Source: Closterium sp. NIES-65
Lineage: Eukaryota > Streptophyta > Zygnematophyceae > Desmidiales > Closteriaceae
Reading direction: 5' to 3'
Assembly (NCBI GenBank): GCA_948144175.1
Contig: CANXME010002057.1
Coordinates: forward strand, 395,501 to 459,500
Length of the DNA: 64,000 nucleotides
The translations under genes and the position numbers were made by a program. The notes under the pieces are model-generated. The model had not been told where the DNA came from, did no database searches, and worked only from the letters and a program-made list of their open reading frames with translations. Within the stretch, counting starts at the first letter, position 1. Each line of letters starts with the position of its first letter. Positions 1,081-64,000 of this stretch are shown piece by piece.

Positions 1081-4000
1081 TTACGCCTTGTCAGCATCGC
1101 CATCGGTCTCCTCCGGTGCAAACATGTCCAGCACACCGGACCAGTCCCGCTTCTCCCGTCGCTCCCAGTAACCCCCAGTGTACCGCCATGTGTTGTTAGG
1201 CCCCGAGGGCTTGAACCACCGTGGGCCCCACCCTGGTTCCCCGTCTTTGAGCGCCTGATTCGACAGAGTTATAAAGGGGAAAGGGCAATATGGTCATAAA
1301 TATTCAAATTAGGCCCGGCTTTCTTCCCCAACCGTGAGGGGTGGCAGAAAGAGTGGAGAAGCATGAGAAAGCGGGCAAGAGAAAGGGGGGTAAGAGCGAT
1401 TGGTGACTGAAATCACGTGTTGGTGCAACAAAGCAGTGTAGTCCTGGGCACGAGATGCACCTTGCGCTGGCGCTGCTCGAGGCGGCACTTCTCCTGGTTG
1501 GCAAAGTCGTACCGCCCCTCCTCCAGAGCCCTCTGATCCTCCCTCAGCCGCGAGTCCGTGGGGGGCAGACATTCCTGTAGGGGACAGAGGAGGAGGGGAT
1601 AGGGGAGGGGTGAGATAATGGGTGAAAGCTGAAGTCGTACTGCCCCTCTCCCCCAGCGCCCTCTGGTCGGCCCTCCCTCAGCCGCGAGTCCGTGGGGGGC
1701 AGACACTCCTGTGATGGGGAGAGGAAACGGGGGAGGAGTGGGTGGGAGGAGAGAGTTGGTGGGAAGAGCTGAAGTGGGCAGTTGGTTTTTGAGGCGCCTC
1801 AGAAATCTCTGTCTGCTGGACGGACGCGGACATGCCTGTGGGGTGCAGAAAGGGATGGAGATAGGGAGTGGGGTATAGGTGCTCTATCTAGGGACCAACC
1901 TACGGGGAGAACGATAGATGAGAGGTCGTCTTCCCATATGAAGCCTCATCCTGACAGACGACTAAATCCCCCCACACACGCATTTTAGGGCCATCCAGAC
2001 ACACCCTCCCACCCACTCACCTTGAGCGAGGGAGTGAGCTCGTTGAGTGTGATTGTGAAGGGTGTGAACTTGTAGCAGGTGGCTATAAAATCAATCAAGG
2101 ACCAAGGGCGTGCCACACACTTGCTTACCTTGAGCGAGGGGGTGAGCTCGTTGAGCGTGATGGTGAAGGGCGTGAACTTGTACTTGGTGTTGGGCGGCAC
2201 AGGGTTCTTCTTCCAGATGAGCTGCGCCGTGGCCAGCACCTCGCTCTCCTCCTTGGCTGTCTTGCTCGTCAGATCCCCCGGCACATAGTGCACGTGCTGG
2301 TCCCACCGCCCCATCAGCGTCCCCTGCTCGTCCCCTGCCTCGTTCTGCACCAGCCCCCGCACCTGAGAGGGTGATGGAGAGGGGAGGGTTGGGGAAGGGA
2401 GGGGTGGCATGGAAGCAAGGGAGGAATGGGTTTGTCAGGTCTCCTCCCCTCCCTCCTCCCTTAAACGTAGTGCATGTGCTGGTCCCACCGCCCCATCAGC
2501 GTCCCTTGCTCGTCCCCTGCCTCGTTCTGCACCAGCCCCCGCACCTGGAGGGGTGGGAGAGTTGGGAGGGGGCCTATTAGAGCCAAATAACGAGGAAGCT
2601 ACCTAATGCCAGTGACTCAAGTCCTCACTTCAGGTTCTTGCTTCTACTTCATGCGAGGTGGTGTGTTCATGGGCTGTACCTGGTACAGGTTGTTCCCGTA
2701 CCTGCTGTGGGTTCTTCCCATTCATTATCTGGGTCGTTCCCATACCTGGTGCGGGTTCCTATCAAAGGTGGAGCGCTCTTTGAAGCGCAGGCGGGCAGAG
2801 TACCCACGGTTGCCCTTGATGCGCATGGTGCCATAGTGCTCCACAAAGGGCTTCCCCAGAATGAGGTTCTGAATCAGCACGGTCACCTGATGGGGCATGG
2901 GGGGAGAAGGATGGGAAAAGACAGTCCGGATGGTCAATCCTCAAAGTTTGAATAATAACACATCAACATACACTCCTGGAACTCACACCACCCCACTCGT
3001 GCATCTTCCTATCATCAAACTCCAGTCAGCTCCCTCACTGCATCCAGCTGGATAAACGGCCCTCACAATCGAATCCCAACGTCACAGTAACCCTAAAAAT
3101 GGATCAACATGCACTTATATAACTTCGGCAAAAAGTGAATACACAAGTGTAACTCACATTGCTCCACTCGTACGTCTCCCCGTCGTCAAACTGCACAGTC
3201 AGCACGCCCACAGGGTCCAGCTGGATGGACGGCCCCCAGAATCGAATCTTGGGGCACACGTCACCCCAGAACTTCCACCCTGTGCCGTCCACGTGCCAGG
3301 CTATCATTGGAGGATAGTGCACCACCTGGGACAATGCGATGAGAGGTGAGTGTGAGACGAAAGGAATTGGGGAAAGGAGATGAGGGAGAGAGCGGGAAGG
3401 GGATGGTTAACCATTGCCTTCAATTTTGATATCAACTCACAACTCATCGCCTCACGTATGCAACTCACAACTCAGAGATGTAACTCACCGATTCGGAGAT
3501 GTAACGGATGCTCTTGTCAGGATAGTCCCCTTCGGTGGTCTTCCCCAGCAGCGGATTGAAGGGCTTGTGCATGCGCCCCTCGTTGCCTGAATACACCTCA
3601 TGTGCGACTCACAACCCGGGTATCTACTCACCGATTCGGAGATGAAACTCGCAAAGGAGGACATGTAACTCAGTGACTCCAATATGTAACTCAACGAGTC
3701 GGAGATGTAACGGATGCCCTTGTCGGGATAGTCCCCTTCAGTGGTCCCCCCCAGCAGCGGTTGAAGGGCTTGTGCATGCGCCCATCGTTGCTTGAATACA
3801 CCTGATGTCTGACTCACAACCCGGGTATCTACTCACCGACTCTGAAATGTAACGGATGCCCTTGTCAGGGTAGTCCCCTTCGGTGGTCTCCCCCAGGAGC
3901 GGATTGAAGGGCTTGTGCATGCGCCCATCGTTGCCTGAATATCGTGAGACTGCGAATGCCGCCACGTGTGCTGCTCTCATCAACCGGTTGCCCTGCTTGT

Positions 4001-7000
4001 GGGGGAGAGGGAGGAGGGAGGAGGGAGGAGGGATGATGGAGGAGGGAGGAGGGAGGAGGGAAGAGGGAAGAGGGAGAAGAGAGGAGATGGTGAAAAGTTC
4101 AAAGTGGTTTTGTTTTTTCTGCTTGTGCCTTTTATAACTGAAACTGCACCACGTGTGCTGCTTGCATCAACCAGTAATCATGCTTGGGAGGGGAAGGGGA
4201 GAGGGCAGGGAGATGGAAATGTTTGAATAGTCCTGCAGACAGTCATGGAAATGGGAGTACTCAAGCATATCGTGGTACTCGTTCCAAGTTTCAACTCAAC
4301 CCAACGCAACCGAACCAGCCCAACATAACCCACCAACCAACCCAGCCAAACCCAACCCTACCAAACAGAACCATGACTCATCCTCCGGCCATACTCTACA
4401 CCGGTCCAGAAGTCATGAGTACTCGAGCATTTCCAGGTTTTTTTTTGTTCAGAGTCCCAAATCAGCCCAACCCAACCAACCCAACTCAACCGAAACCAAC
4501 CAGCCTAATTAGAACCCACCCTCCGGCCATACTCCGCAGCCCTATCCAACAGCCACGAGCACTTGAGCATTTCCAGGTACTTCTGGCTCGAGCTGAGCAG
4601 CTCGTTGAAGTTGACGGGGAGGGAAACCTTGAACATGTCCTTGCCCATGGACTCCATCAGCTCCAACCCAACCCAAACCAGCCCAGCCCAATCCAACCCA
4701 GCCCAACCCAACCCAACTTTTCCCAACCCAACCCAGCTCAGCCCAACCCAAGCGAAACCAAGCCCAGCCCAATTACAACTCACCCTTCGGCCGTACTCCG
4801 CAGCTCTATCCAGCAGCCACGAGTATTCGAGCATCTCGAGGTATTTCTGGCTCGAGCTGAGCGGCTCGTTGAAGCTGACAGGCAAGGAGACCTTGAACAT
4901 GTCCTTGCCCATGCACTCCTTGAGCACGGACCACAGGTTCAGCGGCTTCTCCTCCTCCTCCGGGTCGGGGAGTTTTGATCTCCTCGGCACGTGCGGGTAG
5001 CTGAACCCCACCTGAGGTGCGCCGTGAAGGGGGGACGCGGAGTGGGAGGGAAGGACGGAGGGAGGAGGGCAGGCAGGGAAGGAGGCAGGCAGGCAGGCGG
5101 GCGGGCAGGCAGGCAGGCGGGCGGGCAGGCAGGCGGGCGGGCGGGCGGGCGGGCGGGCAGGCAGGCAGGCAGGCAGGCAGGGAGGGAGGGAGGGAGGGAG
5201 GGTGCGAGTTGAGGGGCAGCGAGACCTTCAACATGTCCTTGCCCATGCACTCCTTGAGCACGGACAGAGATATTCAGGCGCCTCAGAAGCAACCACACCT
5301 TCCATGCCCTGCCCAGCGAATTCGTCCATGGCCTCATACAAATCATCGTGACAATCGCTGTCCATGTCCCCCTCGTCTCTCTCGTCTCCCTATTCCCTTC
5401 ATCCCCTTCGTCCCCTCATCCCCCCTCCCCCGCATCCCCCTCATCCCCCTCGTCCCCCCTCCCCCTTTCCCCTCCCAGACAGCTCACCTCTTCGATATCC
5501 AGCACGCGTTTCACCATGCCCTGCCCAGCAAACTCCGTCATCGCCTCGTAGAACTCGTCGTTACAGTCACTGTCCGTGTCCCCCTCGTCTCTCTCGTCTC
5601 CCTATTCCCCTCATCCCCCCCATCCCCCTCATCTGCCTCGTCCCCTTTCCCCCCTTCACGAGTGTCACCCTCCCCTCCCGGCAGCTCACCTCTTCGATAT
5701 CCAGCACGCGTTTCACCATGCCCTGTCCAGCAAACTCCGTCATCGCCTCGTAAAACTCGTCGTTACAGTCACTGTCCGTGTCCCCCTCGTCCTCGTCCGT
5801 GTCCCGCACCGTCGACGTCAGCCGTGGCTCCTTCCGCGCCCCCCCGCCGCCTCGCGCGCCTGGGTCGTCGTCGCCCTCGTCGTCCCCATCGTCGTCGTTG
5901 AACGTGCTGTCTGCATCGTCGTCCTCCTCGCCCACTGGGGGGAGAGCGGGGGACGGGAGAGAAGGGACATGGAGGAACAGCAGTGGGAGGGCACAAGGTA
6001 GACGTGTTACTGCCAGTAAATCAGAGCACACGAGTCGTCGCCCCCCCCGTCGTCCCCATCGTCGTCGTTAAACGTGCTGTCTGCATCGTCGTCCTCCTCG
6101 CCCACTGGGGGAAGGAGGGTGCGGGAAGAAGGGGGGGGGATGGAGGAATGTGAGGGGGAATGGTGTGGGTGGAGATTGAGAGGGAGAATGAGGAGGAGAG
6201 GGGAGATAAAAGGGTTAGGGTGGCTGAACGGTTACGAGGGCGGGAGGGGAGAATGTAGGAGGGAAGGAGAAGTATGTGCACACGTAAGCATTGGATTTGC
6301 ACACGAAAGCATTGGATTTGCACACGAGAGACAATGGAATTTACAATGCCGTTCACTCACTGCACAGCTGTCTCACACATTGCCGTGCACTCACGAAGCA
6401 TGGCGCTGCTGCTGGGTTGGCCCTGCTGCCTCTTCTCGTCCACCACTGCCGTTTCCAGCTCCACCTTCTCCGCCTGCAATCATCACATTCCGCCATTGTC
6501 ACACCCAACCAGGGCACAAGTCAACACGTGGCAAATGCGATCATACACAGCACAGACCGCTTGCACCACCACAACACCTCCCAGTTTCCCCCTCCCACCC
6601 ATTCTCCCCTTCCTACTAATCACCCACCTCGAGTTGCCGCAGCAGCGTCAGCAGCTGCAGCCGCTTCCTCTGCTCCTCCCTTAACTTAGTCTCTAGACGT
6701 ACCACCACCTTCCGCCGAACCATCTCCTCCACGCCACTTATAACCTCCTCTTCCACCCCACTCCGCTGCATGTACGCCCTAACCGCGTCGAAGCACACGT
6801 GCGACGACACGTCCACCTTATTCGGCGCCGCGTGGAGCCTCTTAATTAGGTTCACGCGCGCGTTTTCTATGGCTTCCATCCAAAGCGCCCGCCCCGCTTT
6901 GGATTCCGTCCTAAGCCCCAGCGTTCTGTGCCCAAACACGTAAAACTTTCGGTTGTCCGTCGTGCTCGCGCGGATGGTTGACACGTGGAGCTCGATCTGC

Positions 7001-10071: not shown

Positions 10072-13000
10072 TCACTTTCCCACCTTGAACATGAAAGTAG
10101 CCCAGTTAGCCTCGTTAGTGCGCTCCTTCCCCGAAACATATTGCACCGTGGCCCAAGCGCTGCCCTGTGGATCTACACTAATCGATTGAGTCTCGCCAAA
10201 AGCAGCATACTTTCCTGACAAAACCTCAAGCGGGGCTTGGCCGGGGCCAACGGCAAATAAACTATTCCCCATAACTCCTTTCTGGTTTATGCGTACATAA
10301 GCCGCTGTAGGGAAGTACTCAGAGCCAATTAGTGTCGCTGCAAGAATGCCCCTTCCCTTGCTGGGATCCACAAAAATACAAAGAGGGCATGTAGGGAAAC
10401 AAGACGAGTGTGAGTGCAGGCAATCTCATGTTACAAGGGGAGGAGAGGGCAAAAGGAACAAAAACCCTATCACAAACCAAGACACAAGTGCATGTGCTTC
10501 CTCTGCTGCTTTTTCAAAAAGGCAACGAAAAGAGCTTGATTGAAACCACCCGTGCATAAGAAGACAATGAGTGCTTACCATCCCGCACTCACTAACCTGT
10601 TGAAGCCAATCACAGGGCTCAGAAGGCTCTGCCCCGGCACTCCATAAATCCCAAACTTCTTCACCAGGGTCGGAAACGACCTCTTCCCCCGCAGGAACGG
10701 CTGCAGCTTAACCAGCGCTACAGACGGCACTGAGGTCGGATCCAGGCTGTAGCCCGACGGAAACGCCATCCACACGTGCCCCTTGAACCATGCTACAGAC
10801 GTGGACGTCGGCGGAACCACATCCTGGGGAGTATCATACGGCGGCGGCCCAGGCTTTTGCTTGGCATAATCTGAATCGTAGTACGCGGGAGTGTTGATTA
10901 TGGAGTAGCGCAGCTGGAGCGTCGGGTGTGGGAGCATGAGAGAGGAGGTATCGGAGAGGGACCAGAGCGCGAGGGAGGTGTGCGGAAGGGGGAAGGTAAA
11001 GGAGATGTCGATACAGCCGAAGAAGACTTTGTCCTGGCCTTTGAAGCGGGAGAGGCGGGGGATTCGGGGGGACTGTGGCTCGAGGCCAAAGACAGGGAAG
11101 CTGTTGTAGTTGATCATGGGGATGGCAAAGCGCACCACTCGCTTGGAGGAGCGCAGATAGAGCTTTGGCTTGTGTATCGCACTGGAAGTGGGAAGGGGGA
11201 AGAGGGTTTGGGGGAAGAGAGGAGGGGGATGGAGGAGAAAAGGTTGGGGGACAAGAGAGGAGAAAAGGTTTTGGCTACTCTTTCTGCAAAGTAAAGCAAA
11301 TCTTTTTCTTGTCTCCCTCCCCTTCCCCCCTCCCGTTTCCCCTCTTTTGTCCTCCTGCCCGTCAAGTGCCCCAGCTTCCTCTGCGTGGCATACTGCCGGG
11401 TGGTGAGGTACACGCCAAAACCCCCCACCCTCCCCATCCCCTTCTACCCGTACGTGTAGTGTAGGCTATAATCCGCGTTATAGCGCACGTGACTCACTAT
11501 ATGTTGCTGCCGACGAAGCGCCCCAGCTTCCCCTGCATGGCATACTGCCGGGTGGTGAGGTACACTCCGTAGCGGTCCACTGTGATGCGAGGGGTGGCGC
11601 CCCAGTAGACCCTGCCGGGGTATCGCAACGGCGGGGCCGTGTCGTTGTGCGACTTCACCCCATCGTTGCTGTGGGGAGGGCGGGGCGGGCACAGGGACAC
11701 AGATAGAAGAACTTGAGTGGAGTGGAGTGATGCGAGGGGTGGCGCCCCAGTAGACCCTGCCGGGGTATCTCAGCGGCGGGGCCGTGTCGTTGTGCGACTT
11801 CACCCCGTCGTTGCTGTGGGGAGGGCGGAGTGCAGCAGGGGCACAGCAGGGGCGCAGCAGAGATGGAGGTTGAAAGCGGAATAGCAGGGGTGTGGGGTGT
11901 GAGATAAACGCCAAAGCGGTCCACCGTGATCCCTGGGGTCGCTTTTGAGTCGATTCAAAAGACACCGTGATCCCTGGGGTCGCTTTTGAGTCGATTCAAA
12001 AGACACCGTGATCCCTGGGGTCGCTTTTGAGTCGATTCAAAAGACACCGTGATCCCTGGGGTCGCTTTTGAGTCGATTCAAAAGACACCGTGATCCCTGG
12101 GGTCGCTTTTGAGTCGATTCAAAAGACACTGTGATCCCTGGGGTCGCTTTTGAGTCGATTCAAAAGACACCGTGATCCCTGGGGTCGCTTTTGAGTCGAT
12201 TCAAAAGACACCGTGATCCCTGGGGTCGCTTTTGAGTCGATTCAAAAGACACCGTGATCCCTGGGGTCGCTTTTGAGTCGATTCAAAAGACACCGTGATC
12301 CCTGGGGTCGCTTTTGAGTCGATTCAAAAGACACCGTGATCCCTGGGGTCGCTTTTGAGTCGATTCAAAAGACACCGTGATCCCTGGGGTCGCTTTTGAG
12401 TCGATTCAAAAGACACTGTGATCCCTGGGGTCGCTTTTGAGTCGATTCAAAAGACACTGTGATCCCTGGGGTCGCTTTTGAGTCGATTCAAAAGACACTG
12501 TGATCCCTGGGGTCGCTTTTGAGTCGATTCAAAAGACACTGTGATCCCTGGGGTCGCTCGCTCCCCAGTAGACCCGGCTGGAGTATCTCAAGGGAGGGGC
12601 CGTGTCGTTATGGGACTTTACTCCATCGTTGCTGTGGGGAGGGGAGGATAGAGTGGGAACAGGGACGCAGGGACAGAGGGACAAGGGAAAACACAGGGGA
12701 GAGAAGAACTGGGGAGAGGGCAAGCATACTCACACTCCTCATTCATACCTGGCGGGAATGATGAAGACGTTCCAGGTGACTTTTGAGTCGACTCAAAAGG
12801 AACTGCGGAGAGGGCAAGCATACCCACACTCCTCATTCATACCTGGCGGGAATGAAGAAGACGTTCCAGGCCATCATGGGCGTGAGGGCGGAGGAAGCAG
12901 CCACCACAATGGGAGAGATGACTACGTAAACCATACTCATACTCCTCGTTTATACCAGCATAACAGCCGAGGACAGGACCAATGTACCTGGCGGGAATGA

Positions 13001-16000
13001 AGAAGACGTTCCAGGCCATCATGGGCGTGAGGGCGGAGGAGGCGGCCACCACAATGCCGTACCCTGACGTGCTCCCATCCGCGTTCCTCCTCGTCTGCCC
13101 AAACCGGTCCCACTTGTTGCGATAACCACCCGACTGGCAGGGGTGGGAGGCACGGGGGGGAGGGAGGCAAGAGGGGTGGATAGGAAGAGGGGTGGGTGGG
13201 AAGAGGGGATGGAGGGGAAAGGGGGAGGGAGGCAAGAAGGGTGACTGATCTTCAGTTGAGAAGGGAGAAAGAGGCACCGGTGGCACACTGAATGAATGGA
13301 GGAAGCAGCCACCACTATGCCGTACCCTGACGTGCTCCCATCCGCGTTCCTCCTCGTCTGCCCAAACCGATCCCACTTGTCGCGATACTCACCCGAGTGA
13401 GAAGGGGCGAGGAGCAAGAGGGGAGGGAGGCAAGTGGAGTGGAAGGGAAGCGGGGAGGGAGGCAAGAGGGGAGGGAGGCAAGTGGGGTGGAAGGGAAGCG
13501 GGGAGGGAGGCAAGAGGGGAGGGAGGCAAGAGGGGAGGGAGGCAAGACGTGTGGTTGATCTTCAGGTGAGAGAGGAGAAAAAGCCACTGGTGGCACAATG
13601 ATAGGACGATACCCACCGGACTGGCAGGGACAGGCGGGAAGTGGGATGGGCGGCAAGAGGGGGTAGGAGGGAAAGAGGGGTGGGAGGGAAAGAGGGGTGG
13701 AAGGGAAGAAGGGTGGTGGACAACTGGCTAGAAGAGGAGGGAATTCGCCCTTCAAAGATTCTCCAATAGGAACATAAGTTCCGCGTAGCCCCACCCCTAT
13801 CGAAAAAGCGAAGAGGGTGAAAGAGTGCGAGAAGCGTGAGAGAGAGCGAGGAGGGGCGGAGAAAGAGAGCACTCACGAGCCATGCAGCAGCAAGGAAGAA
13901 TCGGCCTGACGAGGCGTCAAAGACGCACGAGGCCTTGTTGATGAAGTCGCCCGGGCGGGTGAAACCTACTGCTATTAGAAGTATCAAGAGAGATAGAGCG
14001 GGCACTTACAAGCCATGCAGCGGCAAGAAAGAAACGGCCTGAAGAGGCGTCAAACACGCACGAGGCCTTGTTGATGAAGTCGCCCGGGCGGGTGGAGTTG
14101 GCCGGCATTACTCCAAAGAACTGCGGGGAGAGGGGGGGGGGGGGGTGAGTGGGTTGGGTTGGAGAGGGGTGGGAGAGCAGAGGAAGAAGGCTTAAGGGTG
14201 AGGATGGGTGTCCGGAAATCGCCTGGGCGGGTGGAGTTGGTTGGCATCACTTCAAAAACTGAGTGAAAGGGGGGAGAGGGAAGGGAGGAGAGGGTGGGGG
14301 GGGGGGGGAAGAAAGGCGGGGGGGGGGGGGGGGGGGGGGGGGGAGAGGGTTGGGAGGGAGGATAGGGTTGAGGGCAGTGGGGAGAGGGGCGGGCGTGGTT
14401 GTGCGCGACGGGTGGGGAGGGAGAGAATGGACGGATGAAGCATGGAGAGACGGAAGCAGTCTCTCAGCCGAGAGGAGTTGGCAGCGTGTTTGGACCATTG
14501 TGCATGTAGGACGGCTGCCTGCCTGTGCCTGCCTGCCTGAAAGGCTCAGCGTGAAAGGGCATGGGGGAGTGCAACATGGTGCAACATGGTGCAAGTAGGA
14601 CAAAAGGTTGTTTTTGTTTGGAGTGGAGCGGGGGAGTGGTGGTGAAGGAAGGGAAGGGGAAGATGAGGTGAATGAAGACGATGGCAGACGAATGGGGAGT
14701 GGGAGATGATGGATAAATAGGGGATGACTGATGGGGCATGGGGATGGGGCATGCTGAATAAAAAATGGGGGACAATGGGGTATGGCTAGTGGGGCATGGC
14801 TAGTGGGGCACGGATGGTGGGGCATGGCTAGTGCTGGTGGAAAAGGCAGCACACTGTACTGGGGCGGCACGGCAACAGCAGCATGCATACCTCGTTGAGA
14901 GGTTGTGGCAGACGGACTATCTTGCCCCGCTTGTTGTAAATCACAATGGCTGTAGCACACAGGACGAGTGCAGAGCGGCAAATGCCGAGGGTCAAATGAA
15001 GCAACAAATGCGGAGGACAGATTAGCTGGTGTGAATTGGAGCTGATAGGACTGACAGAATGGACCAGAAACCTGAACATGGACCTGATGGTATAGGACAA
15101 ATAGCTGCGCAGAGAACCTGAAACAGTATTAAGGGAAGCACAGTTCTATTGTCCTTTCAGGTGTATGTCTCTTGCAAGCACCGGACTGCATCACTCAACA
15201 CAGCACTGTATCCCTAGACACCGCACTGCATTGCTCACCGTAGTTGACGATCTGCACGATGTACAGCCTGCCAACGCACACAGCAGAGTCGGGAATCCAT
15301 GGATCGAACTGCGGGGAAGAAAGAAGGAACGGGAGGAGATGCGATGGAAGCATAGAAATAATGCCACTTTATGACATGAGGACTACTGTTCACTTATTCA
15401 GTTTATCGGCGTCAATAGTGCCGTTTCACTACACTGCACAGCATAGAAATAATGCCACTTTATCATTTCAAGCTTCAACGCTCGCTCACCACCTGACGAC
15501 TTTCCTGAATACCTTTCCTGTCTCCCCACCTGAAACAGTATCTTACCACCTGACTAACACTCTTGCTGCACCCGAATGCAGCTGCTGCTTCACCCAAACA
15601 TCACTTCAGTCACCCTCCTAAGTGCCGCTCCTGTCTCACCTGAGTGCCGCTGTAAGCATGGTTCACACCAGCCACCAGCTGTCGCTTCCCAGAGATGCCC
15701 TTAAAGCCCAGCTTCGGCTGGCTGTCAAGCACGCCTAACGGCGTGGCCTCGGTGTACTGTACCGCCGGCGTCACTGTCGCCGTGCCTGCCTTTCTAAACG
15801 CGCTGTTCTGTAACGAGGACAAACGCAAGGAGGTCACGAAGCCCACAAGTATCAGGAGCAAGTTCGGCGTCAGGGAGAGAGCGGGATTGGCTGAGTCACA
15901 AGGACGTCCCATGAACGTCAGCGGGATTAATTGCTTATAGCTCTATCTAGAGTGCTTCAGTGAATGAATGCTTAAGGACTCAAGTGCTGGAGTGCGCATT

Positions 16001-27618: not shown

Positions 27619-27619
27619 G

Positions 27620-50570: not shown

Positions 50571-50582
50571 GCTCTGATACCA
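50571..50582 (-). other. Chromovirus primer-binding site
   Basis: Sense sequence TGGTATCAGAGC, two bases from the end of the 5' LTR. This is the classic plant retrotransposon site complementary to the 3' end of initiator tRNA-Met. Confidence 0.93.
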
Positions 50583-50584
50583 AG

Positions 50585-51280: not shown

Positions 51281-53152
51281 CTATGGTACACCACCCGAGT
51301 GTAGACCTGGTGTACCTTTAAAATTGGACTGCATATAGACACGGGCCAGTACAGCTGCAGCCTGAGAAGGGGTGAGGGCAAGGATACGTGTGAGAAGGTG
51401 GCTGAAGCTTTGGGAATGTTCTGTGGCTGCACAACCAGTAGTACATGACACCATATCAGCCAGAGCATTGTTGGGATGCGCGAGGTTCGGGGACATGAGG
51501 TTCGGAGGCTCTCCTGCGGGAGGCTTGGCGTCTAGAGGATTAGTGTCAAGAGATGCGGAACTGGGTGCCACAGAGGTGAGAGGCGCAGTTGTCAACCAAG
51601 CAAACGACGGCTTGCCAGACGAGGCATGATCAGCGAGTTGTAAAAAAGCAGACGGTTCCGACGCATTTGCTGCTGTTGTCGGTAATGCCGCCGATGATAC
51701 GAGTGACAATGAGAGAGGAGGGATCGGAGGAGCCGCATCAGGAGGACGGGAAGCAGGAGCGGAAGCACAGGCTTCTGAAACGGGTGTTACTACACCCGTG
51801 GAAGAGGAGGGTGTTAAGACTGTCGACGCAGTGGGTGTCCCACTGGGCAATGCGGAAGCAGTGGCCAGGAAAAGGGAAACGTGAGACGGGGGCAGGCGAA
51901 ACGTGGATAACAGTCGAGGGACACCACCGCCCTCTTCCCGATAAGCATCCCGAGGAGCGTCCCCTCTTCCCAATTCAATATCGAGTTTGCGCGTTTCTTC
52001 CCCTAACCTTGCACCCTGCGCTGGCTGATCCAAGGCAGGGGTCATCCAAACGTCGAGCAGACGGCTGGTTGCGGGCCCGACGGAGGGGCTATCATGATCC
52101 AGCACAGGGCTTGTTGACCTGTCCGTTAAAATCACACTGGTCTCGAGACTGGAGATGTTGCTGCTGCCACTGTGGTAACCACTGGGATAACCACTGCGCC
52201 GGCCATGATTGCGGCGGTAACAGCCCTCGTCGCTGCCGTTTTTGGCCTGAGAGCGAGGAGACGCGGATGGACCGAAGCTCACAGAGTCCTTCGCCGGGGG
52301 GCTCGGCGAAGCTCCAAATTCACCGTCGGAGAACGATCGTCGCATTCGCTTGCTCCTCTGCTGCTGCTCCTGCTGCTGTGGCTGCACTTGCTGCGGCGGC
52401 GGTTGTTGTGGCTGCGGTTGTTGCGCTTGCTGCGGCAACTTCTTCTGCTGCTGCTGATGCCGCCGTTGCCGCAAGGGTTCCACCTCCAGAGACTGGGGCC
52501 CGCCCGCCATTCCTGCGACAGAAGTAACGGCCCCTGCCGCCGCTGGCGGCGGTGTTTCCGCCGTCAGCTGCTTCCCCTTACGCTGGCCGGAGCCCACGCG
52601 GACGTTGCGCAGACACCCCCCCGCGGTCCAGTAGCGGTGGCAGGCCCGGCAAAAGTGACGCGGCTGGTTCACATTGTAGTTGTTGTAATAGCAGAACTTG
52701 GTGTCGCGGCTCGAACACCGCGGGCACGCCAGCGTCGCTGGCACTGGCGCCGGAGCCTGCGGCGGCGACAGCGCCGGCGGAAGCGGCAGAGTTGAAGGCG
52801 GGAGTTGTGCGGTCCGCTTCGGGGGATTGTGCGGTTTTGTCGGCGCCGGAAAGTCGGGGGTAGGTTGAGCAGCACGCATGGTGGTGGTGAGTCTCGTGGC
52901 GGATGGTAATGTGGCAATGTTTTCCGCGCCGCGGTCAGAAGGCGCGGCGTTATAATGTCGAGCGTCACTCGGCGACGAAGCGCCCGTGGACGGAGCACCC
53001 GACGGCACGAATTGCTCTGACGCCAAATTGTTAGCCGTTGGCTTTTGAATAGTCCGTCCGAATAGCCGGAATTCGTTAACTCCTTCCCTGGGAAGTAGCA
53101 TACTGGCCGAGGCTCGGGAAGGACTTTGTTCGGCGGAAATGCAGAGAATCAT
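51281..53152 (-). CDS. Dof zinc-finger transcription factor
   Basis: Single open frame of 623 codons without an intron. The Dof DNA-binding domain spans about residues 140-195: [16 protein letters not shown], then [19 protein letters not shown], giving the CX2CX21CX2C zinc site and the Trp/Gly-rich turn that defines the family. Dof factors bind AAAG cores in nuclear promoters and are specific to the green lineage. Around the domain the protein is Pro/Ala/Gln-rich, with a poly-Gln/Pro stretch C-terminal to the Dof (52370-52480), a likely activation region. I used the first ATG (53152); a second Met (MLLPREG) 17 codons on is possible. The paralogue identity is not clear from sequence alone. Confidence 0.93.
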
Positions 53153-55217: not shown

Positions 55218-58051
55218 TTAAAACGCGGGGACCGGAGCGGCAGCGGCAGGAGGGGGGGCAGCAAAGGCATCAGGCACAGCGACTGGGAGGGCGAGCTTGT
55301 GCGGCTTGGCGAGGAAGTCAGTGAACTCCTGGAAGGGCGTCTTGGTGAACTTGGTGGCGTGCCAGAGGTCGGGCGTGAGGAAGGCGTATGTGTTGAGCAG
55401 ACAGGCGAATGTGGCCTGCAGGAGAAAGAGGTGGGGGAGGGGGGAGGGGGCGGGGGGGGAAGGGGATAAAGGTGGGGATGGGAGGGGAGGACAGAGCATT
55501 AGTAACAGGAACAACATGCCAAGGGTGTGAACTCCTGGGAGGGCGAGCTTGTGCGGCTTGGCGAGGAAGTCAGTGAACTCCTGGAAGGGCGTCTTGGTGA
55601 ACTTGGTGGCGTGCCAGAGGTCGGGCGTGAGGAAGGCGTATGTGTTGAGCAGACAGGCGAACGTGGCCTGTTGGGGTGGTGAAAGAGAGGGAAGGCAAGG
55701 GGAATGGAAGGTAAGGAAAGGGACAACAAGGCTTTGTGGTGTGCCAGAGGTCCGGCCTGAAGTTTAGCGTATGTGTTGAGCACAGGTGGCCTGTTGAAGA
55801 GACGGAGAGGCTAGTGATGCATGGGCAACTTGGTAGCATGCTACTTGTTGGTTGTGAGGAAGGTGTATGGGGAGGTGCAACGGGGCAAGAGAGGAGATGG
55901 GAAGGGTGGGAAGGCGGGAGGTTGGGGACAGATGAAGAAGAAATGGGTTGTAATTACAAGACCAGAGGTGATTAAGTGGGAGAACCCACAGTCTTGCACC
56001 CACCACGCTGCACAGACCCCCACTCCCTCGCATTGTGCTGCACCCACCCCCTTGCACTCCCCTGCACCCATCTCCCTCAACTGTACCCATCCCCCTGCAC
56101 CCATCCCCCTGCACTTTTCACGGAGCTGCAGGGACCGCATTGCAGCAAGCCCGTGCAGCAGTAACTAATCTAACGGCCCCAGCGCACTCAAAAGCTAATG
56201 AACGACTCGTAATGTAAGCGCTTTTTTCTCCCGGGCTATCTGGGACGAATCGGACGGCCCCTGGCTCTTCAGAAGTAGTCTGACGGCCCCTGACTCTTTG
56301 AAAGTAATCTGACGGCCCCAGGCTCTCTGGGACTAATCTGACGGCCACTAGCTCTCAACGAGTACTGACGCCCCCTTTGTATATCTGAGACTAATCGAAC
56401 GGCTCCAGATTCTCTGGGACTAATCTGACGGCCCCTAGCTCTTTGAGACTAATCTGATGGCCCTGGCTCTCTGAGAATAATCGGACGGCCCCAGGCGCTC
56501 TGGATTAACCTGATGGCCCCTGGCTTCCTGGAATTCCTGCACGCTCCCTGCACCATCCCCACTTCAATAAGTGTCAGGCACTAGGAGCACCGGATCACCA
56601 GCAGCAGTTCCTCCACACGCGCGAGGAATTGGGAGGGACAGAAACACCACCACAGCACCACAGAAACACCACACTCTCCAAACCACGACGCCACACTCAT
56701 CACTAGTAACACCACCACAGCGCCACACGAACTGTTGTCTCAACTCAAAAGTCGGCCAAACCACGACGCCTCATTAATCACTACGGCCTCGCATTCCCCA
56801 CACCTTGCATCTCCGCAATACGCGACATGTACTGGGCGTCTGCACCTGCTTCTGCCACGACTGCCACGTCTATCACACCGTTATCTCTCGTCCCTTAGTC
56901 GCCACACCTAGCAAAATACGAGCCCGCTACAGAAGCGAGAAATTGCACTCCACCAGACGGCCCATAGCCAGAAAACCTTCTATCGCTTCTGCCCGGCACC
57001 ACCAGTGTCATCGCCTTTCGATGAAGGCGTCAAGAAAATACTCCCGTCACTTAAGAGGCGCCTCGAAACGCGTCTATAATCTACTTCGGTCACCATCACC
57101 GTCACCGTACGAGAGAACCTGCCTTTGTTTCGCTCAGACAGCCTACTACCGCTGCGAATCGTCACTTCCGCAACTCTCGCTGATACCGACTTCGAAACCC
57201 TGAACCTCGTCCAAGTGACCACCACGCCCAAGACGAAGCTTCCAGAAGACTTCCTCCCCTTTTTTCCTTCCCCTTCCACTGCCCGAGGTCGCCCTGGCAT
57301 TCTGCTATACCGCTGCCAACGATCCCTATAACCCCCGTCCAAGTAAACCTTTCGCTATTCAGACACAGATATTCCCAGTTTATCTCACCTTCACGAAGTT
57401 TCCAAGCGTCTTCGTGGAGCCGCGGGACGAGGTAAAGACGTCCTCGATACCCGCGAACTGCAGCACCTTCTTCGGCACGCGAGCCGCCACAATCCCGGAA
57501 CCGCGAGGCGCGGGGACGAGGCGCACAGTGACCGAGCCGCACTTGCCAGTGACCTTAGTAGGCACCGTGTGGGGCTTGCCGATCTTGTTACCCCAGTACC
57601 CGCGTCGCACGGGGATCACGGAGAGCTTCGCAAGGATGAGCGCGCCGCGAATGGCGGTCGCGACCTCCTTAGCGCACTTCACGCCGAGCCCGATGTGACC
57701 GTTGCAGTCGCCGACGACGACGAACGCCTTAAAACGAGTACGCTGCCCGGCGCGCGTCTGCTTCTGCACGGGCATGATCTTCATGACCTCATCCTTAAGA
57801 GTCGGCAGAAATGCCTCGACTATCTGATGCTCCTTAATCGGCAGCGAAAAGAGGTAAATGTGCTCGATGGACTTAATCTTCCCCTCCTTTACGAGGCGGC
57901 CTAGCTTCGTCACAGGAACCCATGCCTCTTCCTTATCGTCCGAGCGTCTGCGCCCGCGCCCGCGGCCCCTGTCCCCGCGGCCCCTGTCGCCGCGCCCGCC
58001 GCGGTCACCGCGGTCGCCGAATCCGCGCCCGAATCCGCCCCTGTCTGCCAT
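55218..58051 (-). CDS. RPS2: 40S ribosomal protein S2 (uS5)
   Basis: Core protein of the small cytosolic ribosomal subunit near the decoding site and mRNA entry. Exon 1 is 58051-57389 (221 codons, [12 protein letters not shown]..., an RG-rich N-terminus, then the S5 domain with [31 protein letters not shown]). The terminal exon is 55415-55218, encoding [32 protein letters not shown] and an Ala/Pro tail, after a TGCAG acceptor. The donor is AAG|GTGAGA and the join is in phase 0, giving 286 aa, the usual length. I chose the Met before ADRGGFG rather than the upstream in-frame Met because it gives the conserved N-terminus. The 1973-bp intron holds extra copies of the last exon and a degenerate tandem array. 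Confidence 0.93.
55530..55860 (-). repeat. Array of RPS2 terminal-exon ghosts
   Basis: Copy 2 (about 55533-55667) keeps the acceptor (CCAACAG|GCCACG) and most of the exon. Copy 3 (about 55738-55795) is shorter and more diverged. Copy 4 (about 55824-55870) is just recognisable (AACTTGGTAGCATGC...GAGGAAGGTGTATG). Decay increases with distance from the real exon. Confidence 0.88.
56158..56540. repeat. Degenerate tandem repeat, unit about 30-33 bp
   Basis: About eleven units resembling CTCTGGGACTAATCTGACGG followed by CCCCTGG lie in the RPS2 intron. Units vary at many positions. A CCCCCTGCACCCAT repeat precedes it at about 56000-56115. Confidence 0.9.
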
Positions 58052-58667
58052 AACTGTCAAATTCGCCCGAAAGACGGAGCGAGACAAGGGAGAGAAAGTG
58101 AGGAAAGGAACGAGGGAGGGAGGTCGAAAACCCTAAAAGCGAAGAGGGTGAGCGAGAGAGGCTTGGCGGGGAGGAATAGGCGAGGGGAACGCAGAGGGTG
58201 TGCGGAGAGGGGGGAAAAGCGCGGGGAAAGGGTTGAGAGGGGGGGGGGGGGGGGGGAGGGGGATGCTGGGAGAGGCGAATGGGTGCACACTGCAGCTGGG
58301 AGCAGAGAGACTCCTCAGAGGACCGCAAATTGTACATCTTTGTTGCATTTTCGAGTACTTTTTATTCGTAGCGAGCCGAGTCCTTGTTGCGCGTACGACT
58401 TCTGATTTCCAGCAGCAGCCCCGCCACCCAGCCGCACTTAGTTCCCGCAAGCAAGCAATATTAGTTCCCGCAAAGCTATTATATTTGCGACCGTTTCTTG
58501 TTGCCGCGACGCCTTGTCACCACTTGTCGCAGAGGCTTTGGATCGTTGACAGCGTATATAGAGACAAAAAATGTTTTCTTAAACGATTAAGCTACGGTTA
58601 GGCGGTTAGGTCAAGACCGCGAGAGCTTGTTAGGTTGAAGTCCGTCGTCCCAAGGTTAGACTGCGAC
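58052..58667. promoter_or_regulatory. Bidirectional RPS2/RPB3 promoter region
   Basis: 616 bp separate the two divergent start codons. A telo-box AAACCCTAA lies at 58128-58136, 77 bp upstream of the RPS2 ATG, as in many plant ribosomal-protein promoters. A TATATA at 58555-58560 lies about 107 bp upstream of the RPB3 ATG. A long G run (about 58236-58260) lies between them. Confidence 0.7.
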
Positions 58668-60407
58668 ATGGACGACGATCCTATGGCTGGCGACGGCGGG
58701 TCGCTTCAGCGAATGCCGACGATTCACGTTCGCGAGATTCGCGAGCGGTTTATGAAGTTCGAGCTTCGCGATACAGACGTGTCTGTCGCAAACGTGCTTC
58801 GCCGAGTTATGATGGCCGAAGTACCCACCATCGCCATCGATCTTGTCGAAATCGCGAACAACACCTCCGTGCTAAACGACGAATTCATCGCACACAGGCT
58901 AGGCCTCATCCCATTGGTCAGCGACCGTGCGATGTCCATGAAGTTCTCTCGCGACTGCGACGCGTGCGACGGCGACGGCCCGTGCGAGTACTGTGCCGTG
59001 GAGTTCACTCTCAACGTCAAGTGTACGGGAGATGAAACGCTGGACGTTACAACTCATGATTTGATTCCATCATCGAGTGATGACAGTGACGACGCTGTCC
59101 TTCCTGTTGATTGCACGAGACGAATTGAAGGGGAGGACGGCGAGGAGAAGTAAGTAACCAGGTCGAGGCAGGAGTGGATGTAAGTAAGGGGAAGAATGAC
59201 TAAGGGCAAAGGAGGGATTTAGCCTAGCACACTGCTTATTAATTGAGCCACCACCTCCACCCCACCCCCCCCCCTCCCCCACTCCCTCCCTCTCTCCCTC
59301 CTTTTCTGTTGCTCATTGATGTGTGTAAGATTTTCTTCGATTCTATTCCAGGCTGCATTTGCCCAAATTGGCACAACTTCCTTGTGCCGTCAGCCGTTTA
59401 CAGGCACAAGCGTCATGCCATGGCCTTCTGAACGCCCAATGGTCTCCTCTTCTCTCCAACTCCCCCCCACACAATCCCTTGCCCCCCACCCCATTTTCCT
59501 GGAAGTGCCTAATCCCCTCCGCCCTCCCATCTCCTTCCATTCACTCACGAGGAATCGTGATTTTAAAGCCAAGGAATGGCCAGGAGGTCCGCCTGTGTTC
59601 TCTTCCCCCACCCCCACCCCCCTTGCCCCCACAAACCTTTCCGGATCCTCCCTTTTCCTGTCATTACCTCTTCCCCAACCCCACCCCTCCCTTTCCCCTC
59701 CCCCTCAGGGGAATTGTGATTCTAAAGCTGAGGAAAGGCCAGGAGATCCGCCTGCGTGCGATCGCGCGCAAGGGCCTGGGGAAGGATCACGCCAAGTGGT
59801 CGCCGGCGTCGCCAGTGACGTTCATGTACGAGCCAGAGATCACCATCAACCACACGCTCATGGATGGCATGACCCTGGACGAGAGGCGCGAGTGGGTGGA
59901 CTCCTGCCCCACGCAAGTGTTCGGTATCGATGAACATGGACAGGTGAGGTTTTGGTGCGGCATACAGATGTGCTCGGTGCGGCATACACATGTACCTGGT
60001 AGCAACATGTCTTACAAGTCGTTTTGGCAAGAGGTTGTTACAGTCCCCTTTTTCCAGCCTACCAGATGTGTGGAAAGCGTGTCATTGTTTAACTTGGGCC
60101 ATGGCTGTCGTGGCTCTTCCTGTTGGTGATCATGTTTCAGGTTTATGTCGAGAATGCGGAGCTGTATGCGTATGATGATGAGGTAATTGTCAAAGCAGAG
60201 GAGTTGGGCCGACCCGGTCTTGTGGAGATTCGGCCACGTCAGGACAGCTTCATTTTCACGGTTGAGTCGAGCGGAGCTTTATCTGTAGAGAGAATGTTTT
60301 TGGATGCCATAGAGGTTCTTCGGCAAAAGATTGAGGGAGTGAGGCTGTCAGGGGACGGGGATGAGGGTGATGATGATCATTTGGCCACGTTTATGCGCCG
60401 TGGTTAG
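58668..60407 (+). CDS. NRPB3: RNA polymerase II subunit RPB3
   Basis: Alpha-like assembly subunit of Pol II that pairs with RPB11. Exons 58668-59149, 59709-59943 and 60141-60407 join in frame (GTAAGT, GTGAGG donors; CTCAG, TTCAG acceptors) to 327 aa, close to the family length. Exon 1 starts MDDDPMAGDGG and carries the dimerisation core (FELRDTDVSVANVLRRVMMAEVPTIAID) and the zinc-binding loop (CDACDGDGPCEYC). Exon 2 carries GIVILKLRKGQEIRLRAIARKGLGKDHAKWSP. Exon 3 carries the C-terminal helix region (SFIFTVESSGALSVERMFLDAIEVL). The RPB3 assignment rather than RPAC1 (shared by Pol I and III) rests on the RKGLGKDHAKWSP context and the length. Confidence 0.93.
59550..59602 (+). repeat. Ghost of RPB3 exon 2 (5' part)
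   Basis: Repeats 59709-59761 (encoding GIVILKLRKGQEIRL) as GIVILKPRNGQEVRL, about 160 bp upstream in intron 1, with several substitutions. The surrounding intron is CCCCACC-rich. Confidence 0.88.
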
Positions 60408-61395: not shown

Positions 61396-64000
61396 ATGGT
61401 TCACGAGACGCGGCCCGAGCTGCACCACCCGCCGGCGCCGCACCACGAGAACGCGGCGTGGAAGGGTTTCGTGGAGGGCGGCGTCGCGTCCATGGTCGCC
61501 GGCGTCGCCACGCATCCGCTGGACCTCCTTAAAGTTCGCATGCAGGTGCGTCGCACTCATGCAAGGTCCATCGCTCCAGCATGGAGGTCGGTCGTACCCA
61601 TGGTTGCATATCAGCGATTGCATGCCCTACCTCCCTCCTCCCTCCTCCCTCCTCCCTCCTCCCTCCTCCCTCCTCCCTCCTCCCTGCTTCGCATCCAACC
61701 CTAAGATCTTCCATTCCCCCACTCGTTAATGCCTTTCTTTCAGCTTTTAGGCGAAGGTTCTGCAAAAGCGGCGGCGGGGGCAACGGGGGCGCCGGGCGGG
61801 GCGCTGCGGGTGGCGGCGGAGGTGGTGCGGGAGAACGGCGTCAAGGGGCTCTTCACCGGCGTCTCTGCGACCATGATGCGACAGGTGGGCAGGCCGGCTT
61901 GAAAGAGGTTGGAAAATCACCAGATAAAGAATGGGGATGTAACGTTGTGCTCCACGCCGCTGACCATATTCGCGCGTCCCTCTTCAGATTCTGTACAGCG
62001 CGACGCGCATGGGGATCTACGACGTCTCAAAGCAGAAGATGAAAGAATAGCCGCACATAGATGTCTCGCGGGCTGTAATCCGTCCTTATCTCGCCCTCTC
62101 TCCGCTCTCCTCGGATCCCCTGCCTCCCCCTCCCCCCCTCCCCCTGGCTCTTCAGATTCTCTACAGCGCGACGCGCATGGGGATCTACGACATTTTGAAG
62201 CACAAGATGGAGGAGCAGCCGCACATGGCGCCGGGCGGGCTGCCCATGTACAAAAAGGTCGGCGCGGGGCTCGTGTCGGGCGCCATTGGCGCGGCTGTTG
62301 GCAACCCCGCTGACATGGCCATGGTTCGCATGCAGGTGCGTGGGTGAAGAGGGGTTAGGAAAGGTGCATGACGATACATGGCGCCGGGTGGGCTGCCCAT
62401 GTACAAGAAGGCCGGCGCGGGGCTCGTGTCGGGCGCCATTGGCGCGGCCGTGGGGAACCCTGCTGACATGGCCATGGTCCGCATGCAGGTGCGCGCGTGT
62501 GTGCTGACGTGGCCCTTGTCTTGGGGAAATGATCTTTGTCGTAAGCCTAGGAGGCTCCATCCGCACATGCCACTCACCTGCCCCAAGTTACATCATGGCT
62601 CTGCACCACGTCATGTTTCCTCATCTCCCCTCCATTCTCTCCTTACGAGACGATACAAAAGTCATTCAAGTGGCACCTTCCTCGCCTGCCCCTCAACGGC
62701 CCATATGCAATCAGATGGGCGATTGCCGCTAGCATAGCAGCGCAACTACAGCAACGCAGTGGACGCCAAGCCATCTTCCCCTCCTCCCTCCCTCCTCCAC
62801 TCCCTCCCCTTGCCCCTTGCTTTCCTCCCTCCGCTCTCTGCTCCCTCGTCTTCCCCCAGTCGGACGGGCGAGTACCCCTGGAGCAGAGGGCGCGCAGGAC
62901 GTCATTGCGCGCATCCGCCGAGAGCTGCAGGAGTGTCACAATCCCACGATGCTTCCTCTTCCCTCTTCCTCTCTCTTCCGTTCTACCTCCAGGCGGACGG
63001 CCGACTGCCATTAGAGCAGAGGCGCAACTACAAGGGAGCGCTGGACGCCATTGCGCGCATCCGCCGGGAGGAGGGCGCTGCAGCGCTGTGGCGGGGGTGT
63101 GGACCCACCGTGTACCGCGCCATGGCTGTCACTGCTGGCCAGGTGCGTTGACTCCCGTTGACTCTTGTCTCTTGTTCACTCAAGGGCTCCATTTCGCACC
63201 TGCTCCGTCTTCCTTCACTCTTGTTTCTCGAGTCCAAAGTCACACTCTCCCTCCTTTCCACCCTCATCAGCTTGCAACGTACGATCAAGCCAAGGAGAGC
63301 CTTATCGTGGGCGGTTACATGAAAGAGGGCCTTGGTGCACACACAGTGGCAGCATTCACAGCAGCCATCTTTACATCTCCTCCCTCTGCCCCTCCCCTCC
63401 GTCTCTCCAGCTTGCAACGTACGATCAAGCCAAGGAGAGCCTGATAGCGGGAGGCTACATGAAAGAGGGCCTGGGCGCGCACACAGTTGCGGCATTCACA
63501 GCCGCCATCTTCGCTTCCCTCGCCTCAAACCCCTTTGACGTGGTGAAGACGCGCCTCATGAACATGCGCAAGCCAGAGGGAGGCGGGCCGGCACCTTACT
63601 CAAGCCCGCTTGACTGCGCCATGAAGACAATCAAACTCGAGGGGCCGCTTGCACTGTATAAGGTGGGTTGTTGTGCGGCTGTTGTGTGGCTGGTGCATCA
63701 CTCGCCTCAAACCACTTTGACGTGGTGCAGACGCGCCTCATGAACATGCGCAAGCCAGAGGGAGGCGAGCCGGCACCCTACTCGAGCCATCTGGATTGCG
63801 CCATGAAGACAATCAAGCTGGAAGGGCCGCTCGCATTGTATAAGGTGGGTTCCTGATGCAAGGTGTGTGGGTGGTGCAAAGCTCGCCTCAAGAGCCCCTT
63901 TGACGTGGTGAGGACTCGCCTCGTGAACATGAGCAAGCCAGAGGGAGGCGGGCCGGCACTCGAGCCCCGTGGATTGCGCCATGAAGACTAATAAATAAAA
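61396..64000 (+). CDS. Mitochondrial dicarboxylate carrier (DIC/UCP type), 3' end outside window
   Basis: Inner-membrane solute carrier of the MCF/SLC25 family, most like plant DIC1-3 (malate/oxaloacetate/phosphate exchange). Best exon set: 61396-61545, 61744-61884, 62156-62335, 62993-63142, 63411-63662, all phase 0, giving 291 residues before the window ends; plant DICs are about 310. The three Px[DE]xx[KR]-type signatures are PLDLLKVRMQ, PADMAMVRMQ (Met at the fifth place, as in plant DICs) and PFDVVKTRLM. The start is the first ATG, giving MVHETRPELHHPP then GFVEGGVASMVAGVATHPLD. The last short exon is not seen. Four ghost sets lie in the introns. DIC versus UCP cannot be fixed from sequence alone. 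Confidence 0.88.
61988..62050 (+). repeat. Ghost of carrier exon 3 (5' part) with stop
   Basis: After a CTTCAG acceptor it encodes ILYSATRMGIYDVSKQKMKE then TAG. The real exon starts at 62156 with ILYSATRMGIYDILKHKMEE. Use of this copy would truncate the protein. Confidence 0.9.
62378..62488 (+). repeat. Ghost of carrier exon 3 (3' part)
   Basis: Near-identical to 62224-62335 (encoding GLPMYKKAGAGLVSGAIGA through MVRMQ), with its own GTGCGC donor. Confidence 0.92.
62715..62935 (+). repeat. Two ghosts of carrier exon 4
   Basis: 62715-62770 (DGRLPL, then TAG, QRNYSNAVDA) and 62860-62935 (DGRVPLEQRA, then frameshifted) both resemble the start of the real exon 4 at 62993-63142. Each follows a CAG acceptor. 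Confidence 0.88.
63271..63374 (+). repeat. Ghost of carrier exon 5 (5' part)
   Basis: Encodes LATYDQAKESLIVGGYMKEG through AAIF, nearly as the real exon at 63411, and starts after a CATCAG acceptor. It ends abruptly in pyrimidine-rich sequence. Confidence 0.92.
63690..63990 (+). repeat. Two ghosts of carrier exon 5 (3' part)
   Basis: 63690-63844 repeats 63514-63662 (encoding DVVQTRLMNMRKPEGGEPAPY through LALYK) with its own GTGGGT donor. 63880-63990 is a more decayed copy (DVVRTRLVNMSKPEGG) with a short deletion. The array may continue past the window. Confidence 0.9.

Follow-up and report, generated by a model that had tools for sequence, protein, structure and literature searches.

Partial copies of exons recur in the introns beside them in genes of Closterium sp. 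NIES-65

Introduction

How do introns come to hold pieces of the exons that lie beside them, and how widely does this happen in one genome? The question is raised by a stretch of 64,000 nucleotides (hereafter the window; bases 395501-459500 of contig C1759, in an assembly of 874 Mb and 2400 contigs) from Closterium sp. NIES-65, a unicellular zygnematophycean alga whose haploid phase was sequenced (PMC10407611). Closterium is close to land plants. According to the parts of that report used here, more than half of the shared gene groups are duplicated in NIES-65, a within-strain Ks peak lies near 0.35, and sequences of different origin have recombined in NIES-4550, a hybrid strain of the same complex; the assembly was made from PacBio reads with Canu, followed by Arrow and Pilon correction (PMC10407611). 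The region of the window is present a second time in the assembly, on contig C9, at about 99% identity across much of its length and at lower identity in repeat arrays.

Materials and Methods

The survey took in 81 exons in 16 sequence blocks: 30 exons from the five window genes and 51 cores from 14 carrier-family loci, the latter being HMM cores rather than full exons and read in the frames that the HMM hits give. The carrier-family sample was drawn from Pfam matches before any locus was checked for copies, and consists of ten 5-kb stretches and four more loci; L003-L006 were excluded as homologues of, or the same loci as, two of the ten. The 3 kb on either side of an exon were searched with that exon, and matches that were shorter than 35 bp, of low complexity or placed on modelled exons were discarded. 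At least one true copy (an array in the ORP gene near 5990-6110) was lost to the low-complexity filter, and the copy counts are therefore lower bounds. Substitution ratios use 62 of the 68 copies found, six having been dropped (two cross-domain copies and four near-identical array copies).

Results

Exon copies in the window genes

Five intron-containing genes were modelled in the window.

1081-7176, minus: ORP (oxysterol-binding protein) gene; exon chain without copies, Pfam Oxysterol_BP
7176-6631, 6473-6360, 5938-5690, 5011-4786, 3999-3841, minus: ORP exons 1-5 as modelled, edges approximate
3329-3158, 2889-2748, 2364-2129, 1577-1459, 1254-1081, minus: ORP exons 6-10 as modelled, edges approximate
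10075-16828, minus: secreted-protein gene (a name from the earlier note); open frames, read by eye
16828-16103, 15810-15655, 15312-15241, 14960-14880, 14125-14010, minus: secreted-protein exons 1-5, edges approximate
13137-12987, 11680-11500, 11182-10600, 10372-10075, minus: secreted-protein exons 6-9, edges approximate
55220-58051, minus: RPS2 (uS5) gene, exons 58051-57389 and ~55417-55220; Pfam Ribosomal_S5 and Ribosomal_S5_C in exon 1
58668-60404, plus: RPB3 gene, exons 58668-59149, 59709-59943 and 60141-60404; NIES-65 protein P0001
61396-64000, plus: mitochondrial carrier gene; Pfam Mito_carr, NIES-64 protein P0003
61396-61545, 61744-61884, 62156-62335, 62993-63142, 63411-63662, plus: carrier exons 1-5

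With the copies left out, the ORP exon chain matches Pfam Oxysterol_BP over its full length (E 2.6e-110, profile 1-368 of 368), and an open frame at 8599-7142 suggests that the gene may reach further 5'. The secreted-protein gene matched no Pfam family. RPB3 is 100% identical to the NIES-65 protein P0001 over 95% of the query, and the sixth carrier exon lies just outside the window (in L018). The annotated NIES-64 protein P0003 is a fusion of RPB3 and the carrier; its carrier part (317 residues) equals the window exon chain from residue 5 on and leaves out every one of the carrier-gene copies.

Copies were found for 31 of the 81 exons, 68 copies in all, with a median length of 82.5 bp (range 36-176). 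Two of these (L030 3391 and 3612) copy an adjacent exon that belongs to the same domain family, which leaves 66 that are sound. An earlier note on this DNA had claimed that all five genes carry copies of their own exons, from near-identical to barely recognisable, and both statements hold: the window genes have 31 copies at identities from 99% down to 65%, distributed as 11 in ORP, 8 in the secreted-protein gene, 3 in RPS2, 1 in RPB3 and 8 in the carrier gene (of which one spans base 64000 and one lies beyond the window, just past its end). RPB3 is the weak case, with its single copy of 48 bp at 85% identity. The excess over shuffled exons that the note had called for as a check is clear, since dinucleotide-shuffled exons gave 1 match in 810 and exons searched against other loci matched in 2 of 81 cases.

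1632-1711, minus: ORP, 5' part of exon 1459-1577, upstream, 86% identity
2021-2081, minus: ORP, 3' part of exon 2129-2364, downstream, 89%
2465-2546, minus: ORP, 5' part of exon 2129-2364, upstream, 96%
2993-3075, minus: ORP, 3' part of exon 3158-3329, downstream, 78%
3493-3593 and 3699-3798, minus: ORP, 3' part of exon 3841-3999 twice, downstream, 93% and 91%; a 205-bp tandem unit
4137-4186, minus: ORP, 5' part of exon 3841-3999, upstream, 76%
4386-4442 and 4524-4668, minus: ORP, 3' part of exon 4786-5011 twice, downstream, 75% and 86%
5207-5284, minus: ORP, internal piece of exon 4786-5011, upstream, 82%
5488-5602, minus: ORP, 3' part of exon 5690-5938, downstream, 94%
5990-6110, minus: ORP, 5' part of exon 5690-5938, upstream; the array missed by the main search's low-complexity filter
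11355-11416, minus: secreted-protein, 3' part of exon 11500-11680, 87%
11727-11825 and 12537-12643, minus: secreted-protein, 5' part of exon 11500-11680, 97% and 82%
11895-11942, minus: secreted-protein, internal piece of exon 11500-11680, 78%
12842-12911 and 13298-13399, minus: secreted-protein, 3' part and 5' part of exon 12987-13137, 97% and 92%
13878-13961 and 14215-14261, minus: secreted-protein, 3' part and 5' part of exon 14010-14125, 94% and 85%
55535-55669, 55732-55782 and 55822-55869, minus: RPS2, 5' part of exon 2, three copies, 99%, 82% and 75%
59551-59598, plus: RPB3, 5' part of exon 2, in intron 1, 85% over 48 bp
61988-62075, plus: carrier, 5' part of exon 3, upstream, 82%, one in-frame stop
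62376-62488, plus: carrier, 3' part of exon 3, downstream, 93%
62714-62768 and 62887-62924, plus: carrier, two degenerate copies of exon 4, upstream, 72% and 89%
63271-63386, plus: carrier, 5' part of exon 5, upstream, 86%
63695-63844, 63882-64019 and ~64076-64168 (beyond the window), plus: carrier, 3' part of exon 5, downstream, 89%, 80% and 65%; unit ~182 bp

A further degenerate ORP copy (exon 5690-5938, downstream) was read by eye near 5302-5374, and TRF reports a 41-bp array with a palindrome at 11922-12558 in the secreted-protein gene.

Copies at other loci

Of the 13 carrier-family loci with at least two exon cores, 7 hold copies. RPS2 has a separate paralogue locus, and there too a ladder is seen, of about 140 bp, in which the introns still align and are more diverged. 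Among about 16 proteasome-family genes, a protein-level survey with contigs paired by hand found a repeated same-strand piece in two, one on C2400/C2059 (listed first at C2400:3667845) and one at C170:1044430; the test is insensitive and misses short copies. We conclude that exon copies are a real, continuing feature, present in roughly half of the sampled genes.

Geometry of the copies

All 68 copies are in direct orientation and none is inverted. Upstream of the exon there are 22 5' parts, no 3' parts, 7 internal pieces and 3 near-whole copies; downstream there are 28 3' parts, a single 5' part, 5 internal pieces and 2 near-whole copies (Fisher p 1.5e-13 for the 51 one-ended copies, with the 12 internal and 5 near-whole ones set aside). 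We attribute this rule to duplicated segments that would span the acceptor or the donor. Where two copies lie on the same side, the nearer is closer in sequence to the exon in 19 of 25 pairs, and in RPS2 the divergence of the three copies rises outward from exon 2. Two young arrays, L029 (212 bp) and L035 (112 bp), consist of exact tandem units, intron included.

The explanation that we favor, with a probability of roughly 0.7, is that small tandem duplications arise continually and at a high rate, often involving diverged alleles or homeologues, and that selection preserves the intact exon. The direct orientation, the tandem geometry, the ladder and the difference in copy number between contigs are all observed; the steps that may connect them are as follows. 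Duplications of tens to a few hundred base pairs would form through break repair, either by fill-in of staggered breaks or by copying of a homologous template. A duplicated segment that spans the acceptor would leave an extra 5' exon part upstream, one that spans the donor would leave an extra 3' part downstream, and in either case one intact exon with both splice sites would survive, so that the gene still works. Most duplications within an exon would presumably be removed by selection. New events beside the exon would push older copies outward, giving a ladder of falling similarity, and the two members of a pair may often come from, or have later exchanged sequence with, diverged alleles or homeologues.

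Two aspects of the geometry count against this explanation. The earlier note had described the copies as usually carrying the acceptor or donor together with some intron; they do reach the splice site, 55 of them ending within 14 bp of the exon edge, but little of the intron can be aligned, for 42 of the 55 lose homology within 30 bp, even at 97-99% identity (the spacers in this test start at 24 bp, and for a few copies it says little). In several young copies the exon part is 96-99% identical and the adjoining intron is hardly alignable (RPS2 55535-55669, L032 3201-3334 and window 2465-2546, the last being the ORP copy in which the intron past the acceptor barely aligns), which should not be expected of a fresh tandem duplication. 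The second aspect is a hint: the break points of upstream and downstream copies coincide within the exon more than a uniform null would allow (p 0.0005; permutation p 0.13, 10 exons), and independent duplications do not predict such coincidence. Insertion of a whole exon into the middle of an exon, giving a half-full-half arrangement, was considered as a source of the pattern and, at the same permutation p of 0.13 for 10 exons, was not retained beyond a hint.

An unlikely alternative is that nearby DNA was captured during repair and inserted into a break a short distance away, without tandem duplication. Proximal capture of this kind copies exons with their splice sites over less than 5 kb in primates, as described in the portion of PMC2671141 consulted here, and the spacers between copy and exon are often without homology to the copy's own flank. 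The distances are compatible in scale, our search having covered 3 kb, and the copies of carrier exon 5 are found genome-wide only at two homologous loci. Free insertion predicts neither the complete lack of inverted copies nor the position rule, and of the 46 length differences between the two contigs described below, roughly half are clean local copies.

Differences between homologous contigs

Comparison of 124 kb of C1759 with C9 gave 46 length differences of at least 10 bp. In 24 of these a single local match covers at least 80% of the extra bases, in 21 the match is partial (several of these being arrays of shorter units) and in one there is none; the best local matches listed for these differences are all on the same strand. 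The 2985-bp difference at 54865 resembles the insertion of a mobile element. At three arrays the homologous contigs have unequal numbers of copies: the ORP array at 5990-6110, where C9 has two extra copies (indels of +171 and +125 bp), L029 (424 bp, or two 212-bp units) and L035 (+122 bp). Because copy number varies between homologous contigs, the process must be recent, and the earlier note's proposal of a continuing local process is borne out at these arrays.

The same comparison bears on the quality of the assembly. Mixed diverged copies could have misled assembly or polishing, and the Canu, Arrow and Pilon procedure was applied to a genome with many near-duplicates, as the parts of PMC10407611 cited above relate. 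We nevertheless find such an artefact barely credible: 30 of the 31 window copies occur in C9 with both flanks (the ORP copy at 5207-5284 is the sole one not so found), window copies carry their own, independent substitutions between C1759 and C9, and the window sequence has no N. Together with the variation in copy number at three arrays, these observations agree with the note's view that no one assembly error is responsible. It had also set transposition aside, which fits the lack of inverted copies and the one spacer searched genome-wide, that of the 97.8%-identical L032 copy, which occurs only at its two homologous loci. On this single spacer, an introner or transposon origin of spacers was rejected.

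Substitutions between exon and copy

Between exon and copy, pN/pS is 0.21 (bootstrap 0.17-0.25, 62 copies), and from the youngest to the oldest age class it is 0.12, 0.18 and 0.24. Nonsynonymous changes make up 272 of 694 differences, against 388 expected if a copy of the exon itself had decayed neutrally. This expectation is approximate, since its assumed rates come from a small number of recent substitutions; taken singly, 13 of 59 copies deviate from it. We therefore reject neutral self-copying as the sole account. Nor is the synonymous and nonsynonymous pattern what plain slippage on the present exon and subsequent decay would give, slippage being one of the processes that the earlier note had suggested.

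The copies themselves show no coding constraint at present. Between C1759 and C9, window copies differ at 32 of 2642 sites (1.2%), with 10, 9 and 13 changes at the three codon positions, and in the exons 7 of 5451 nonsynonymous (0.13%) and 26 of 1731 synonymous sites (0.0150) differ. Five other homologous pairs show copy changes of 5, 2 and 6 by codon position (13 of 2658 sites) and 24 changes in 8633 intron sites; their exon control (3 of 864 synonymous and 5 of 2490 nonsynonymous) is too thin to use. In total, the 45 copy substitutions of the window and the five pairs are about evenly spread over codon positions. Multi-copy families agree: copies have 148 nonsynonymous and 109 synonymous changes that are theirs alone, and exons 5 and 45. 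Gene conversion was considered and left no signal in the 32 sites, C9 matching the exon at 15, C1759 at 14 and neither at 3.

The low pN/pS between exon and copy is what one would look for if the copies served as alternative exons kept by selection. That reading is very improbable, given that 50 of the 68 copies (22 + 28) reach just one end of the exon, stops are found in 8 of 68 and gaps in 25 of 68, the recent changes are nearly even by codon position, and the NIES-64 annotation passes over the carrier-gene copies.

The excess of synonymous differences seems to call for something more than self-copying. A model with a starting synonymous divergence of 0.18-0.26 fits better than one that starts at 0; under the various rates assumed, the gain is 23-94 log units. 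These results suggest that an exon and its copy often go back to two gene copies that had already diverged; we infer such an origin, or a later exchange, because synonymous and intron differences exceed those expected of self-copies. For the idea to account for the lost homology of introns, turnover would have to be far quicker in introns than at synonymous sites, and the recent intron rate between C1759 and C9 (0.0071) is slower than the synonymous one. Nor was a donor, itself hypothetical, found for carrier exon 5: no diverged homologue of that exon turned up elsewhere in the assembly.

Diverged gene copies could also be the whole source of the pattern. Homeologue exchange, in which an exon piece of one copy is joined to the exon of the other with the latter's own flanks, might produce the copies directly; repair or unequal exchange would then be seeded in exons because introns had lost homology in a duplicated or hybrid genome. 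We hold this to be possible, at somewhat less than even odds. It would account for a pN/pS that is lowest in the youngest class and for the abrupt loss of homology beyond the exon edge, it accords with the Ks peak and with the mixed-origin recombination in NIES-4550 as presented in the sections of PMC10407611 drawn on above, and three synonymous variants, read by eye, are shared crosswise between exon and copy of the two RPS2 loci. It sits poorly with the missing homologue of carrier exon 5, with the youngest arrays, which are pure self-copies, and with the fact that introns are duplicated too. More doubtfully, we speculate that in a partly hybrid, duplicated genome exons are the only stretches in which diverged homeologues still recombine, and that illegitimate exchange feeds half-exons with working splice sites into introns, enlarging these, supplying new ones and fossilising past allelic variants.

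Local repeats beyond exons

Local direct repeats also occur outside exons. A local direct repeat is found in 57 of 248 exon tiles and in 58 of 296 intron tiles that hold no copy; intron tiles thus repeat nearly as often, and neither exon-specific targeting nor the earlier note's treatment of exons as a special target finds support. The spread of such repeats is uneven, and this unevenness counts against our explanation: tiles with a local repeat number 139 of 381 in the window genes, none of 93 in window intergenic sequence, 41 of 540 in the flanks of carrier loci, 159 of 494 and 180 of 463 in unannotated contig flanks, 57 of 559 in the array region at 17-50.5 kb and 0 of 93 at 50.5-55.2 kb. 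The evidence for genic enrichment being mixed, we make no claim of it. What can be read as exon copies is thus one part of a wider process; an exon and its copy should remain recognisable for longer than two copies of an intron, because one partner is under selection.

Discussion

The exon copies of Closterium represent, in extreme form, a type of mutation already known, and their synonymous-only divergence, which simple self-copying does not explain, makes them worth following. Tandem duplication of exons or of internal gene segments, with the creation of introns, was reportedly described by Kondrashov and Koonin in 2001, by Gao and Lynch in 2009 and by Rogers in 1989. Those cases resemble ours in that exonic sequence is duplicated inside one gene, and they are said to involve whole exons or segments within an exon, whereas most of the copies in Closterium are incomplete exons that end at one splice site.

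The earlier note knew of no described mechanism that would produce such copies in every gene of a region. The view that no mechanism is described is not supported, since tandem genomic duplication (PMC4974935), proximal repair-mediated duplication (PMC2671141) and small duplications from break repair (PMC8355091) have all been published. In a potato RdRp gene, an intron was gained by tandem genomic duplication across an intron-exon boundary (PMC4974935). As in Closterium, the duplication takes in an intron's 3' end together with the 5' end of the exon, and the copy inherits splice signals. The potato case concerns a single gene in which RNA-seq proved the new intron; in Closterium, by contrast, many exons of several genes are involved and form ladders, the copies are known from DNA alone, and the annotated carrier mRNA is unchanged. 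In vertebrates, repair-mediated duplication by proximal capture of DNA takes in exons and splice sites (PMC2671141). These duplications, too, are short, local, ongoing and polymorphic, and the pipeline of that paper counts 824 probable proximal cases in the human genome; the Closterium copies differ in occurring several to a gene, on the same strand and in tandem geometry. Finally, fill-in by Pol alpha-primase at breaks with 3' overhangs yields small tandem duplications in human and mouse cells (PMC8355091). Direct tandem copies are common to both systems, the break origin being putative in Closterium, where, unlike in those cells, the copies form ladders. The literature that we searched yielded no genome in which intronic copies of exons are routine, and no report of them for Closterium.

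Such copies may mislead gene predictors into calling false exons. The predicted RPB3 of Mesotaenium has an exact internal repeat of 73 residues that is of the same shape as a copy read as a false exon. In a larger context, Closterium is a live place to study the growth of introns: with copies in about half of the multi-exon genes sampled, some of them variable between near-identical contigs, their birth, their decay and the possible capture of their splice sites could be observed and the rates measured.

A Recurrent Palindrome and the Repeats around It

The sequence GACTTTTGAGTCGACTCAAAAGTC, a perfect palindrome of 24 bases, occurs 3176 times genome-wide, as against 0 occurrences of the backward control, and its variants differ in the central bases. 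Sites lie in the window, in the flanks of its contig (C1759), and at mitochondrial carrier-family loci sampled elsewhere in the genome (L034, L035, and L037).

Places of the palindrome
window 11942-12517, sites inside a 41-bp array
window 12780, site
window coordinates -16333, -14538, 82780, 83644, 87575, and 90911, sites in the C1759 flanks
L034 3873, site
L035 555, site
L037 2198 and 2293, sites

When 24 sites were tested for flanking repeats, homologous contigs being counted apart, a direct repeat (11-71 bp) flanked the palindrome on both sides at 18 of them, compared with 16 of 120 random sites; at 3 further palindrome sites a longer, diverged flanking repeat was read by eye. By a looser flanking-repeat score, 2/13 palindrome sites came out above the controls' 95th percentile (median 33.5 versus 7.5). 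The repeated unit at window 12780 takes in an exon end, and L037 carries a 53-bp stretch with the palindrome at its end, a stretch that the L037 homologue lacks. The palindrome looks like either a very small element flanked by long target duplications or the junction filler of a tandem duplication.

Other Features of the Region and Related Genomes

window 20474-49128, four direct repeats of ~5 kb, 80-83% similar to one another and containing long open frames rich in repeats
window 51281-53152, single open frame whose product has a zinc-finger domain of the Dof type (Pfam profile match)

The Dof domain is known from plant transcription factors. The homologous contig, C9, differs in length at window 20426 and 40549, where it lacks one stretch of 6.9 kb and carries another of 7.4 kb. 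At window 54865 it holds 2985 bp, absent from C1759, that include a poly-T stretch; the site has a 16-bp repeat, and the extra DNA is likely a retroelement insertion.

In strain NIES-64, a public gene prediction (P0003) runs RPB3 together with the mitochondrial carrier next to it as a single fusion protein. The predicted Mesotaenium RPB3 protein (P0002) contains an exact internal repeat of 73 residues, which corresponds to RPB3 exon 2 in its 3′ part; another Zygnematophyceae genome may have the same exon-copy anatomy.
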